DNA of 64,000 nucleotides from Flavobacterium sp. CG_23.5. GTDB lineage: Bacteria; Bacteroidota; Bacteroidia; Flavobacteriales; Flavobacteriaceae. Both the position numbers and the translations under genes were made by a program. The notes beneath the pieces were generated by a model. The model was not told the origin of the DNA, did not search any database, and saw only the letters and a program-made list of their open reading frames with translations. The stretch's first letter is position 1. The number at the start of each line of letters is the position of its first letter. Positions 9,864 to 61,672 of the stretch are shown in pieces. The stretch lies in the NCBI RefSeq assembly GCF_017875765.1, contig NZ_JAGGNA010000001.1, forward strand, positions 3,003,001 to 3,067,000, in the 5' to 3' direction.

Positions 9864-10220
9864 CGAATTTCAGGAGCTATATCCAGCTTTTCATTGCAAG
9901 TTTTTGCGAACCCGTTTGTTTTTCTAATGTTCCCGCAGGAGCTTCCTTTGGTCGCTCTGCAACAACAAGAAAAACCAAAACGGCTTTCGCAAAAAGCTTT
10001 TCATTATAATCTGGGCTACGGGAGATGTGGTTGTCGGAAGTTTAGTGGACTTAATTGCTAATTCCAGTACTCAGTTTGTCTTTCCTAAGAAGGAGGTATA
10101 TTATGAAAACTATTCCTCAATACTGTGAGATTCCTCCTTTGTCGGAATGACAATTAGCCGATAGTATTTTTGATGTAAATCAAAAAATAAGACTGTGTTT
10201 TCAAAAGTACAATGACGTTA
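9864..10220. other. Intergenic region with dispersed-repeat copy B and a GGAGG/CCTCC inverted repeat
   Basis: Besides repeat copy B (9878-10018), this region contains GAAGGAGGTAT (10089-10099) and the facing TTCCTCCTTTGTCGGAATGA (10132-10151), a second repeat-like element. A 15-codon ORF between them begins ATGAAAACTATTCC, but it looks incidental. No real gene is visible. Confidence 0.5.
9878..10018 (+). repeat. Dispersed hairpin repeat, copy B
   Basis: It starts TATATCCAGCTTTTCATTGC and ends CATTATAATCTGGGCTAC, with long internal arms: TGCGAACCCGTTTGTTTTTC pairs imperfectly with GAAAAACCAAAACGGCTTTC plus GCA. Its centre (9936-9960) is shared with copy A. Confidence 0.75.
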
Positions 10221-27343: not shown

Positions 27344-27682
27344 ATGCTTCTAATTGTCACTAAATATTTAATTCCCAAAGGGTATCGTGGATTGACTGCG
27401 TTTCCCTTTGTCTTTGTGAAATATCGGGTCGACAAAGAAGATCAGGTTTTTGTAAATCACGAAAAAATTCACCTCCGCCAGCAAGTGGAATTACTGGTAC
27501 TTCCTTTTTTTATTTGGTATTTTCTCGAATATCTTGTAAGATTGATTCAGTATAAAAACACTGAAATAGCCTATCGGAACATCAGTTTTGAGCGGGAAGC
27601 CTATGCCAATGAACTCAATTTAGAGTATTTAAAACACCGCCCTTTCTTTCGATTTTTAAAATATAATGTCAAAAAGAAGTAG
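27344..27682 (+). CDS. Small membrane protein with an HEXXH motif
   Basis: The 112-residue protein is not assigned to a named family by me. It has HEKIH at residues 39-43 (VFVNHEKIHLRQQVELL), directly followed by a hydrophobic helix (about 49-66, ELLVLPFFIWYFLEYLVR), then SFEREAYANELN (81-92) with a possible third ligand at E83 or E85. HEXXH plus a downstream ExxA is the arrangement of gluzincin metallopeptidases such as M48 and M56, though the protein is far smaller than these. A protease function is an inference. It stands alone with hairpins downstream at 27721 and 27847. Confidence 0.75.
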   Translation: MLLIVTKYLIPKGYRGLTAFPFVFVKYRVDKEDQVFVNHEKIHLRQQVELLVLPFFIWYFLEYLVRLIQYKNTEIAYRNISFEREAYANELNLEYLKHRPFFRFLKYNVKKK

Positions 27683-57591: not shown

Positions 57592-57599
57592 TACTTTTG
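57592..57599 (+). promoter_or_regulatory. -7 box of rpsU
   Basis: TACTTTTG fits TAnnTTTG, 29 bp before the rpsU ATG. The nearest upstream TTG (57557) is too far away to be a standard -33 element. Confidence 0.6.
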
Positions 57600-57608
57600 C
57601 ACACTTAA

Positions 57609-57620
57609 AGAAAGGGGGTG
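57609..57620 (+). promoter_or_regulatory. Exceptional Shine-Dalgarno of rpsU
   Basis: AGAAAGGGGGTG differs at one base from AGAAAGGAGGTG, the complement of the Bacteroidota 16S 3' end, and that difference is a G-U wobble. It lies 8 nt before the ATG at 57629. Other genes in the window lack any Shine-Dalgarno at this place. Bacteroidota ribosomes normally bury the anti-Shine-Dalgarno with help from bS21, so this site can let bS21-free ribosomes raise bS21 synthesis. Confidence 0.85.
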
Positions 57621-57628
57621 TCTATATT

Positions 57629-57823
57629 ATGTTAATTATACCAATTAAAGACGGAGAAAATATCGATAGAGCATTAAAACGCTACAAAAGAAAATTTGAT
57701 AAAACAGGAACTGTTCGTCAACTAAGAGCACGTACTGCTTTTATTAAGCCTTCAGTTACAAATAGAATCAAAATTCAAAAAGCGGCTTATATCCAAAATA
57801 TGAGAGATAACTTAGAGAGTTAG
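57629..57823 (+). CDS. rpsU: 30S ribosomal protein bS21
   Basis: The 64-residue protein MLIIPIKDGENIDRALKRYKRKFDK... is bS21, with the expected Arg/Lys-rich helical body (RALKRYKRKFDKTGTVRQLR, RIKIQKAAYIQNMRDNL). It binds near the 3' end of 16S rRNA on the small-subunit platform; in Bacteroidota it helps occlude the anti-Shine-Dalgarno. I chose ATG 57629 rather than the frame start at 57587 because the family begins MLIIP and because a strong Shine-Dalgarno (57609-57620) sits 8 nt upstream. The next gene, xerC, starts 70 bp later, just after the rpsU terminator. Confidence 0.96.
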   Translation: MLIIPIKDGENIDRALKRYKRKFDKTGTVRQLRARTAFIKPSVTNRIKIQKAAYIQNMRDNLES

Positions 57824-57845
57824 TCAATATCTATTAAAATAAATT

Positions 57846-57893
57846 ACCGTTAGTCATTAAAAGTTTTATAACTTTGATGCTAACGGTTTTTTT
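57846..57893 (+). terminator. rpsU terminator with promoter in its loop
   Basis: ACCGTTAG (57846-57853) pairs with CTAACGGT (57880-57887) around a 26-nt loop, followed by seven T residues (57887-57893). The T-run ends immediately before the xerC ATG. Confidence 0.85.
57869..57876 (+). promoter_or_regulatory. -7 box of the XerC-type gene, in the rpsU terminator loop
   Basis: TAACTTTG fits TAnnTTTG and lies entirely in the loop of the hairpin. The inferred transcript start (about 57883) is within roughly 12 nt of the ATG at 57894. Confidence 0.65.
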
Positions 57894-58787
57894 ATGAATA
57901 CTAAAGACGCATTTCGAGATTATCTACAATTAGAGAAAAAATATTCTCCACATACCGTAAATGCGTATTTGAATGATTTAACAGACTTCGAAACATTCAA
58001 CAAACTTCATTTTGATCAGGAAAACGTCGAGCAGGTGAATTACAGCCAAATTAGAAATTGGATTGTTTCGCTTGTGGATGCTAATTTGTCAAATGTCTCC
58101 GTCAATAGAAAAATTGCCTCCCTAAAAGCATTTTATAAATTTCTATTAAAAATAAAACAGATAGATGTCAGTCCTTTGTTAAAGCATAAAGCGCTTAAGA
58201 CTCCAAAAATATTACAAATTCCATTTTCTGAAAAAGAAGTATTGGATGTGTTATGCCATATGCAAAGTCCTGTAGGTTTTGAAGAAATTAGAAATAAGCT
58301 TATCATAGATTTATTTTACACTACCGGAATGCGTAGAACGGAGTTGATTCACATTAAAATTAGCAATGTTAATTTGTCTGGCCATACAATCAAGGTGCTT
58401 GGTAAAAGAAATAAAGAAAGAATACTTCCCGTTTTGCCAATAATTACAGAGCAATTCTCGTTGTATGTAAGAGAGCGATTGTGTCTGGAATCCATTGTTG
58501 ATAGTGAATATTTTTTTCTCACAAAAAAAGGGTTAAAATTAAACGATTCCTTTGTGTATCGATTAATAAATACTTACTTTAGTACAGTGTCAGAGAAGGT
58601 AAAAAAAAGCCCGCATATATTGAGGCATACGTTTGCAACTCATTTATTAAACAATGGGGCCGATTTAAATTCAGTGAAAGAATTGTTAGGTCATTCAAGT
58701 CTGGCATCGACTCAAATTTATACGCATAACAGTTTGTCTGAACTAAAAAAAGTGTACCAAGAGGCGCATCCAAGGAATAAAAAATAA
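57894..58787 (+). CDS. Tyrosine recombinase, XerC type
   Basis: The 297-residue protein is a tyrosine recombinase of the XerC/D size class. An N-terminal SAM-like DNA-binding domain (about 1-90) precedes the catalytic domain. Active-site residues are R147 (GMRRTEL), K171 (LGKRNKER), H241 and R244 ([10 protein letters not shown]), H267 (LLGHSSL) and nucleophile Y276 (TQIYTH). These are complete. Its position between rpsU and hpf next to translation genes, and the absence of att sites or phage genes, argue for a chromosome-dimer resolvase role rather than an integrase. It starts directly after the rpsU terminator's T-run. Confidence 0.93.
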
Positions 58788-58821
58788 TTCATGAAGTGTT
58801 TAACTATTAAAAAAAATGATT

Positions 58822-59124
58822 ATGAAGGTAAGTATTCATGCAGTTAACTTTACAGTTGACAAAAAGCTAGTAGATTTTGTTCAAGAAAGAATGGATAAAT
58901 TAGAAAAGTACTATGACAAAGTAGTATCAGCAGATGTTTTTTTGAAAGTTGAAAAGACAAGTGTTAAGGAAAATAAATGTGCCGAGATAAAATTAAATAT
59001 TCCAGGCGATGATTTTTTGGTGAAAAAGCAGTGCAAAACTTTTGAAGAAGCGGTGGATCTTTCGATAGAATCTCTGGAGCGATTATTGGTAAAAAAGAAA
59101 GAAAAAATAAGAGAGCAGATATAA
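58822..59124 (+). CDS. hpf: Ribosome hibernation-promoting factor (HPF/RaiA family)
   Basis: The 100-residue protein MKVSIHAVNFTVDKKLVDFV has the HPF/RaiA fold: a short N-terminal strand, helices, and the middle ADVFLKVEKTSVKENKCAEIKLN. Its short length matches the small HPF type without the C-terminal dimerisation tail. These proteins bind the 30S decoding region and help form inactive ribosomes in stationary phase. An ATG two codons upstream (58816) is also possible; the third-codon ATG is favoured because the family begins MKV. Located between xerC and the tRNA-tuf cluster. Confidence 0.9.
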   Translation: MKVSIHAVNFTVDKKLVDFVQERMDKLEKYYDKVVSADVFLKVEKTSVKENKCAEIKLNIPGDDFLVKKQCKTFEEAVDLSIESLERLLVKKKEKIREQI

Positions 59125-59149
59125 TATGAATTTTTTATTAAAAAATGTT

Positions 59150-59178
59150 TTGATTGAGAGATAAAATCTATACATTTG
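59150..59178 (+). promoter_or_regulatory. Promoter of the tRNA-Thr/tuf operon, overlapping the hpf terminator
   Basis: -33 TTG (59150-59152), 18-nt spacer, -7 TACATTTG (59171-59178). The transcript would begin inside the stem at 59180-59201. Confidence 0.75.
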
Positions 59179-59179
59179 C

Positions 59180-59208
59180 AGTCCGTTAGAAATAGCGGAC
59201 TTTTTTTA
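59180..59208 (+). terminator. Terminator hairpin after hpf, at the tRNA operon start
   Basis: AGTCCG (59180-59185) pairs with CGGACT (59196-59201) around a 10-nt loop, followed by a run of seven T residues. It should stop hpf read-through. Confidence 0.8.
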
Positions 59209-59216
59209 TTGATTTT

Positions 59217-59290
59217 GCCAGCGTAGCTCAGTTGGCTAGAGCAGCTGATTTGTAATCAGCAGGTCGTGGGTTCGAGTCCCTCCGCCGGCT
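59217..59290 (+). tRNA. tRNA-Thr (anticodon TGT)
   Basis: A 74-nt cloverleaf. The anticodon arm CTGATTTGTAATCAG gives TGT, reading threonine ACA. The T-loop GTTCGAGTC is normal. The acceptor stem GCCAGCG/CGCCGGC has one A-C mismatch. 3' CCA is not encoded. Confidence 0.95.
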
Positions 59291-59337
59291 CAAAATAAAA
59301 CTGAGGTTTTGATAAGCTGAAATAAAATAAGAAAAGA

Positions 59338-59418
59338 GGGGAGATACTCAAGCGGCCAACGAGGGCAGACTGTAAATCTGCTGTGTAAACTTCGCAGGTT
59401 CGAATCCTGCTCTCCCCA
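59338..59418 (+). tRNA. tRNA-Tyr (anticodon GTA)
   Basis: An 81-nt class II tRNA with long variable arm. Acceptor GGGGAGA pairs perfectly with TCTCCCC; the anticodon arm CAGACTGTAAATCTG shows GTA (tyrosine). Confidence 0.95.
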
Positions 59419-59454
59419 CAAATTTAGATTTTTGAATCTAAAGTTTAAAACTCT

Positions 59455-59526
59455 GCCGGTGTAGCTCAGGGGTAGAGTGCTTCCTTGGTAAGGAAGAGGT
59501 CTCGGGTTCAATTCCCGACATTGGCT
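59455..59526 (+). tRNA. tRNA-Thr (anticodon GGT)
   Basis: A 72-nt cloverleaf. The anticodon arm CTTCCTTGGTAAGGAAG has GGT in the loop TTGGTAA, reading ACC/ACU threonine codons. The T-arm TTCAATTC is standard. Acceptor GCCGGTG pairs with CATTGGC using two G-U pairs. Confidence 0.95.
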
Positions 59527-59580
59527 CAAGTAAGTAGGAGATTGAAATTAAATATATAACTAGATTAAAAATTAAGTAAA

Positions 59581-60768
59581 ATGGCAAAAGAAACCTTTAA
59601 CCGTAACAAGCCCCACTTAAACATTGGTACAATTGGGCACGTGGATCACGGAAAAACTACATTAACTGCAGCGATAACTAAAGTGTTATCTGATGCTGGT
59701 TACTGTCAAGCAAAATCATTTGATCAAATTGATAATGCACCAGAAGAAAAAGAAAGAGGTATTACAATTAATACATCACACGTTGAGTATGAAACTGCTA
59801 ATCGTCATTACGCTCACGTTGACTGTCCAGGTCACGCGGATTACGTAAAGAACATGGTTACTGGAGCTGCTCAGATGGATGGTGCTATTCTTGTTGTTGC
59901 TGCTACTGATGGACCAATGCCACAAACACGTGAGCATATCCTTTTAGGTCGTCAGGTTGGTATTCCTAGAATGGTTGTATTCATGAATAAAGTGGATATG
60001 GTTGATGATGAGGAATTACTTGAATTAGTTGAGATGGAAATCAGAGACTTGTTATCTTTCTACGAATATGATGGAGATAATGGTCCAGTTGTTCAAGGTT
60101 CTGCTTTAGGTGGATTGAACAATGATCCAGTTTGGGTACCAAAAATTCTTGAATTGATGGAAGCTGTAGATTCTTGGATCGAAGAGCCAATAAGAGATGT
60201 TGCAAAACCTTTCTTAATGCCTGTTGAAGATGTATTCTCAATTACTGGTCGTGGAACTGTTGCTACAGGTCGTATCGAAACAGGAGTTGCTAATACAGGA
60301 GATCCAGTTGAAATCATTGGTATGGGAGCTGAAAAATTAACTTCTACTATTACTGGAGTTGAGATGTTCCGTAAAATCCTTGATAGAGGAGAAGCTGGAG
60401 ATAACGTAGGTATTCTTTTAAGAGGTATTCAAAAAGAAGACATCAAAAGAGGAATGGTTATTTGTAAGCCAGGTTCAGTTAAACCACACGCGACATTTAA
60501 AGCTGAGGTTTATATCTTGAAAAAAGAAGAAGGTGGTCGTCACACACCATTTCATAATAATTACCGTCCACAGTTTTACGTACGTACAACTGACGTAACA
60601 GGTATCATTACTTTGCCAGCAGGTGTAGAAATGGTTATGCCTGGGGATAACTTAACTATTGATGTAGTATTGCTTAGTGCAATTGCATTAAATGTTGGTT
60701 TACGTTTTGCTATCCGTGAAGGTGGTAGAACAGTAGGTGCTGGTCAGGTAACTGAGATAGTAGCTTAA
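59581..60768 (+). CDS. tuf: Elongation factor Tu
   Basis: EF-Tu delivers aminoacyl-tRNA to the ribosome. The 395-residue protein has all GTPase motifs: [37 protein letters not shown], and [14 protein letters not shown]. Effector loop [17 protein letters not shown] and domain 2 ([16 protein letters not shown]) are normal. The upstream sequence has no Shine-Dalgarno, only an A-rich stretch. It is downstream of three tRNAs and upstream of tRNA-Trp, all on one presumed transcript. Confidence 0.99.
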
Positions 60769-60786
60769 TCCTATTAAATAAATTAT

Positions 60787-60820
60787 AAAGCCAGTGACAC
60801 CTAGGTTGTTGCTGGCTTTT
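60787..60820 (+). terminator. Hairpin between tuf and tRNA-Trp
   Basis: AAAGCCAG (60787-60794) pairs with CTGGCTTT (60812-60819), followed by a T. The loop contains the small palindrome ACCTAGGT. It acts as terminator or attenuator. Confidence 0.8.
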
Positions 60821-60825
60821 AACAA

Positions 60826-60896
60826 ACGGGCGTAGTTCAAGGGTAGAATAGCGGTCTCCAAAACCGTTGATGGGGGTTCGAATCCCTCCGCCCGTG
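60826..60896 (+). tRNA. tRNA-Trp (anticodon CCA)
   Basis: A 71-nt cloverleaf with anticodon arm CGGTCTCCAAAACCG (CCA, UGG codon) and perfect acceptor stem ACGGGCG/CGCCCGT. Position between tuf and secE is the usual one. Confidence 0.95.
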
Positions 60897-60914
60897 CAAA
60901 TAAACTAAATCATA

Positions 60915-61112
60915 ATGGCAAAAGTTGTTAATTATATATCGGAAGCATTCGAAGAATTAAAGTCAAATGTAACTTGGCCTGAGTGGGCTGAAGTACAACG
61001 TCTAACAATTATTGTGGCTGTCTTTTCAGTAGTATTCGCTTTGGCAACATGGGGAGTTGATGAAATTTTCGCCAAAGCCTTAGCTGGATTTTTTAACTGG
61101 ATAAAAGCATAA
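60915..61112 (+). CDS. secE: Preprotein translocase subunit SecE
   Basis: The 65-residue short SecE has a single membrane helix (about 33-50, LTIIVAVFSVVFALATWG) preceded by the conserved amphipathic segment AFEELKSNVTWPEWAEVQR. With SecY it forms the core protein-export channel. It is 18 bp after tRNA-Trp and 8 bp before nusG, in the standard order. Confidence 0.97.
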   Translation: MAKVVNYISEAFEELKSNVTWPEWAEVQRLTIIVAVFSVVFALATWGVDEIFAKALAGFFNWIKA

Positions 61113-61120
61113 TTTTTGTT

Positions 61121-61672
61121 ATGGCAGATAATAGTATAAAAAAGTGGTATGTCGTTAGAGCAGTAAGTGGACAAGAGAATAAAGTGAAAGCATACATCGA
61201 AACTGAGATCGCAAGATTAGGGATGGGTGATTATGTTTCGCAAGTTCTGGTTCCTACTGAAAAAGTGGTTACTGTTAAGGAAGGGAAAAAAATAATCAAG
61301 GATAAAGTTTATTTTCCTGGTTACGTAATGATTGAAGCAAACCTAATTGGAGAAATACCTCATATTATTAAGTCTATAACAAGTGTTATTGGTTTTTTAG
61401 GTGAAACCAAAAATGGTGAGCCTGTTCCATTGAGAGTTTCTGAAGTCAACAGAATGTTAGGTAAAGTGGATGAGTTGGCTGTTAATACGGACACTCGTTC
61501 TATCCCATTCAATATAGGAGAAACTATAAAAGTTGTTGATGGTCCATTTAACGGTTTCAACGGTACCGTTGAAAAAATAAATGAAGAAAAGCGTAAACTT
61601 GAAGTAATGGTTAAGATTTTCGGAAGAAAAACACCATTAGAATTAAGTTTTATGCAAGTTGAAAAAGTATAA
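61121..61672 (+). CDS. nusG: Transcription termination/antitermination factor NusG
   Basis: The 183-residue protein has the NGN domain starting KKWYVVRAVSGQENKVKAYI and including KIIKDKVYFPGYVMIEANL, then a C-terminal KOW domain GETIKVVDGPFNGFNGTVEK. NusG binds RNA polymerase and ribosomes and modulates pausing. Spaced 8 bp from secE. Confidence 0.98.
   Translation: MADNSIKKWYVVRAVSGQENKVKAYIETEIARLGMGDYVSQVLVPTEKVVTVKEGKKIIKDKVYFPGYVMIEANLIGEIPHIIKSITSVIGFLGETKNGEPVPLRVSEVNRMLGKVDELAVNTDTRSIPFNIGETIKVVDGPFNGFNGTVEKINEEKRKLEVMVKIFGRKTPLELSFMQVEKV

Follow-up and report, generated by a model that had tools for sequence, protein, structure and literature searches.

The rpsU locus of Flavobacterium sp. 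CG_23.5 raises the question of why the gene of one small ribosomal protein should carry an extended Shine-Dalgarno (SD) sequence in a lineage, the Bacteroidia, whose ribosomes are reported in the main text of a study on F. johnsoniae not to recognise SDs (McNutt et al, 2023; PMC9976891). In the window, by which we mean the whole stretch of 64,000 nucleotides that was analysed, rpsU occupies positions 57629..57823 (+) and encodes a bS21 protein of 64 aa (Pfam PF01165, E 5.8e-17), in which the alignment shows that Tyr54, the contact to the 16S tail, is kept. The extended SD, AGAAAGGGGGTGT (57609..57621, +), forms 13 contiguous pairs with the 16S 3' tail, 12 of them Watson-Crick and a single one G-U, which lies within the GGAGG core at 57616. 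The preliminary description had counted 12 positions with one G-U for AGAAAGGGGGTG (57609-57620), 8 nt before the bS21 ATG at 57629; this count holds and was slightly understated, since the tail has AACACC where the canonical comparison tail has AUCACC, so that U at 57621 pairs too. Extraction of the genome's own 16S 3' end, which had been suggested as a check, gave CACCTCCTTTCT in 3/3 full-length copies, the longer 3'-end read of these three genes being GGAACACCTCCTTTCT and the tail GGAACACCTCCTTTCTAGAG, with an intact anti-SD of the ordinary CCUCC type in all three. With the mature 16S end taken to lie at UUUCU, an assumption behind the pairing count, the 13 positions correspond to -21.7 kcal/mol in RNAduplex between the rpsU leader and this tail. 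Pairing stronger than -13 kcal/mol over 9-13 bp is what characterises bS21-autoregulated rpsU, and the window's value, obtained with an energy program unlike that of the paper, is also near the range of -14 to -21 kcal/mol given there for rpsU with the other program (PMC9976891). Two partial 16S genes were also seen in the genome (G000:C1:1242485-1243757, model positions 9-1326, and 1819259-1820003, model positions 759-1520), both about 5-6 kb from full-length copies, which would point either to rRNA operons that are truncated or to an artefact of the assembly.

The rpsU site is singled out by its place at a gene start, and less by energy alone. When both strands of the window are scanned for contiguous pairing, it is the sole run of 13, the next runs measuring 11 and 10. 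By energy it ranks first among 42,650 25-mers of the window by a small margin: a value of -15 kcal/mol is attained by 110 25-mers grouped in 23 clusters, the second of which comes to -19.9 kcal/mol (27622-27658, minus strand). Each of the five 25-mers that reach -20 overlaps the rpsU site. At other gene starts, the strongest leader found among 44 ORFs that do not overlap and are 90 aa or longer reaches -8.4 against -21.7 for rpsU, which bears out the earlier claim that other genes in the window are devoid of such an SD; only 2/44 lie at -8 or stronger and the median is -2.1, the longest start and the first ATG having been tried mechanically as putative starts. At the genome level, a pattern search for AAGGNGGT-N(3-13)-ATG gave 62 occurrences compared with 138 for the reversed control, in agreement with the SD depletion described in the main text of PMC9976891. 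The search for AGAAAGGAGGTGT with up to 2 mismatches gave 85 occurrences (control 102), the four perfect matches coinciding with the antisense of 16S 3' ends. Within the fetched subset of the listed genome sites, no convincing gene start with an extended match was found besides rpsU, the other sites that passed the filter being located within, or on the strand opposite to, longer open frames. One further motif, AAGGAGGT, precedes by 5 nt an ATG (10103) that is followed by only 15 codons; the region 10087-10150, containing AAGGAGGTATATTATG, these 15 codons and a downstream CCTCCTT, reads by eye as an arm of an inverted repeat and is probably an intergenic repeat element and not a gene start.

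In most bacteria strong SDs simply promote translation, and the rpsU site might likewise do no more than ensure high constitutive translation of an abundant small ribosomal protein, without any feedback. We regard this as improbable, given the reported indifference of Bacteroidia ribosomes to SDs, the absence of any comparable leader among the window ORFs tested, and the response of an F. johnsoniae rpsU'-gfp reporter to the state of bS21: it rose over 4-fold when bS21 was truncated and 3-fold with Y54A or depletion, whereas SD-less reporters remained about level (main text of PMC9976891). We propose instead, with a probability of roughly 0.93, that the rpsU leader is the sensing element in the loop of bS21 autoregulation that is known from Flavobacteriales. 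A model of bS21 autoregulation was reportedly put forward by Jha and colleagues in 2021, which we know via citing papers. In such a loop, the 16S 3' tail of complete ribosomes would be kept in a pocket by bS21, bS18 and bS6, so that a strong SD would be of little benefit on them. On 30S subunits without bS21 the tail would be free to pair with the 13-nt SD, so that rpsU would be translated preferentially, until newly made bS21 fills the deficient 30S subunits and the advantage of rpsU ends. For F. johnsoniae, the main text of McNutt et al (2023; PMC9976891) describes a 16S tail bound by bS21, bS18 and bS6, and an rpsU with an extended SD that is preferred by ribosomes lacking bS21, on the basis of reporters and purified ribosomes. 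We infer from this species that the loop would work in the same way in the present one. The two loci share the gene, an extended SD of comparable energy, a predicted leader of about 25 nt, the anti-SD CCUCC, Tyr54 and transcription of rpsU alone (predicted here); the window differs by the G-U at 57616 in the GGAGG core, the F. johnsoniae leader being compared by its description only. Autoregulation through bS21-free ribosomes, as the preliminary description had read this site, is supported by those sequence features of the leader that were compared and has been established by others in the close relative F. johnsoniae (PMC9976891, main text). It is already published, and the window provides a clean example of a system that is known, not of a new one. 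The interest of the locus is that it clearly exemplifies a circuit of specialised ribosomes: the ribosome missing one protein selects the mRNA of that protein.

The surroundings of rpsU are consistent with a single-gene unit with a short leader, as predicted from a -7 box and a hairpin. The -7 box match, TACTTTTG (57592..57599, +), was read from the sequence and fits TAnnTTTG, which we take to be the Bacteroidota -7 box consensus; no clear -33 TTG was found at the usual spacing from it. Inspection by eye placed TTTG at about the same distance in the 80 related leaders presented below. Taken together with the leader of 25 nt that has been predicted for rpsU of F. johnsoniae, the -7 box suggests a 5' leader at 57604..57628 (+), likewise 25 nt, and its folding is weaker than that of shuffled sequences (z +1.3 and +1.6). 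Between rpsU and the next gene, the stretch 57838..57893 (+) contains a terminator-like hairpin with a T run and has a stability of -19 kcal/mol (z -6.42), equalled by 0/200 shuffles. The next gene after rpsU, at 57894, encodes a tyrosine recombinase (PF00589), and the order across 57629-61672 of the window is rpsU, tyrosine recombinase, S30AE gene, tRNA-Thr, tRNA-Tyr, tRNA-Thr, tuf, tRNA-Trp, secE and nusG, in which tuf, secE and nusG are the names that these genes presumably bear.

Loss of the leader in related genomes had been named as an observation that would speak against autoregulation; what we found is that 80/80 related leaders pair with the window's tail at -19.2 kcal/mol or stronger, these relatives being the best 80 among 554 stretches that had been confirmed, mostly from Flavobacterium with some metagenome bins under other names. 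The pattern composed of TTTG, the SD frame and a bS21 start was matched in 184/199 Flavobacterium genomes. At the level of the order, a non-random sample of 50 loci (30 best-scoring and 20 hand-picked) yielded a start for 48, of which, by our own count, 21/48 have a strong canonical SD, 3/48 pair only with a Chryseobacterium-type tail and 24/48 have no strong SD with any of the three tails, which indicates that not all members share the circuit. Among these 24 is L165 (G281), a divergent bS21 copy without an SD-like leader in a family member that has two bS21 matches. It could be argued that the purine-rich block, which starts about 5 nt after the predicted transcription start, is kept mainly for transcription as an initial transcribed sequence, the 16S match being secondary. 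This is highly improbable in our estimation, since an anti-SD core of UCUCA is reported together with a matching rpsU sequence (Jha et al, as cited), and since TGAGA stands in the place of the SD in the 3/48 order-level leaders just mentioned, for which a Chryseobacterium-type tail with assumed flanks served in place of the genomes' own 16S. Such a Chryseobacterium-type rpsU, as described in citing work, shares with the window the gene, the position and the underlying logic, but differs in its core, the 16S of the window being of the ordinary CCUCC type.

The G-U pair had been singled out as a variation worth comparing between species. The comparison was made and the pair does vary within the genus, but the window's form is not unique, since it occurs in 37/199 Flavobacterium genomes, and a species-specific feature is therefore rejected. 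In the 13-position SD frame of 81 leaders (window + 80), one G-U is present in 78, none in 3 and two in 0. It lies at SD position 4 (GAGAGGAGG) in 51/81 leaders, at position 8 (GAAAGGGGG, the form of the window) in 26/81 and at position 5 in 1. Over the 199 genomes, four pattern searches assigned the position-4 G-U to 130, the position-8 G-U to 37, neither to 15 and both to 1 (G656), with one genome (G697) falling into two groups on two contigs. Independence of the two sites at these frequencies would predict about 27 genomes carrying both and about 41 carrying neither, in a calculation that ignores kinship, versus the 1 and 15 observed. The statement that the two wobbles never occur together is rejected as an absolute by G656 (1/199). 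A compensating 16S change is likewise rejected, T being opposite the G in 3/3 full 16S copies. A single wobble is not a family-wide rule either: a strict pattern, applied to 249 genomes of the family, matched 48 leaders (the 201 non-matching genomes being uninformative on the SD), which when counted by eye comprise 24/48 without wobble, 22/48 with the early G-U and 2/48 of the window's type. Wobble-free leaders are thus about as common as the position-4 wobble in the wider family (24 vs 22 of 48), which makes their scarcity a feature of Flavobacterium.

The two positions are exchanged repeatedly along the phylogeny. A tree of 80 rows was computed from rpsU together with the sequence that follows it, with the SD excluded and with one row (L025) dropped as too short; on it, 9 changes are needed for the position-8 state and 11 for the position-4 state. 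Across 8 independent pairs differing at position 8, position 4 differed in the reverse sense in 6 or 7 and in the same sense in 0 (median p 0.016); for 9 pairs differing at position 4, the change was opposite in 5 to 7 and the same way in 0 (median p 0.031, range 0.016-0.063). The predicted duplex energies give no support to energy tuning as an explanation of wobble avoidance, being -22.2 kcal/mol for the early wobble, -22.1 for none, -21.2 for the late one and -21.3 for both, and both together are predicted to be as stable as the late wobble alone. A recombining leader allele as the cause of the exchange is not supported either, since 9 changes are required both on a tree of the rpsU CDS (81 rows) and on that of rpsU and downstream sequence (80 rows), and 14 on a tree of the upstream sequence. 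Recombination of short tracts might nevertheless contribute, and CACACTTAA is found upstream in most late-wobble leaders. We tentatively put forward, as an explanation that we hold to be rather unlikely, that the rpsU SD in Flavobacterium is held to one moving G-U, positions 4 and 8 being coupled by selection on engaging or displacing the sequestered 16S tail, beyond nearest-neighbour energies. Its odds, already low, were reduced slightly further because one leader (G656) has both wobbles. The wobble exchange is the only detail of the locus that is possibly new, a modest and testable one: the terms 'wobble', 'G-U' and 'GU pair' are absent from the main text of PMC9976891, in a narrow literature search that offers a thin basis for novelty. 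The natural series of wobble variants across a well-sampled genus could serve to test the pairing needed to pull the 16S tail from its pocket.

Phage-borne bS21 genes provide a side observation. With the canonical tail, 0/61 phage leaders reach -13 kcal/mol or stronger, the best being -12.1 (L187, on a 735-kb phage record) and the median -1.5, and with a Chryseobacterium-type tail 0/61 reach -10. The 61 are distinct combinations of leader and protein among 93 loci on virus contigs or phage records (L090, L094, L097, L100, L108, L182, L184-L190 and L236-L315), 80 of these 93 being the best 80 of 453. From an earlier set of 22 loci, 5 were included; L089, which is bacterial, and L110, a false match at -11.2, were left out, as were the other 15 (-1.1 to +1.6), some of whose contigs recur in the later set. 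L183, with a leader equal to that of L182, and one further match, H3, were also left aside. An aromatic residue is found in 61/61 phage bS21 proteins, which is not independent evidence because the collection patterns favour Tyr54. If it is true that the phage hosts use the rpsU circuit, a phage gene without an SD would escape the feedback and could lower host rpsU translation by filling ribosomes. This escape from host feedback is speculation, and we keep it as a side observation because many bacterial relatives are also without an SD. L089/L181 was considered to be a phage gene from which the SD had disappeared; this was rejected, the neighbouring genes forming by eye a bacterial rpsU-recombinase-S30AE locus. 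This order, the same as in the window, recurs in L181 on a contig filed as viral, and the L089/L181 leader bears a TGAGA-type SD that reaches -11.9 with a Chryseobacterium-type tail.
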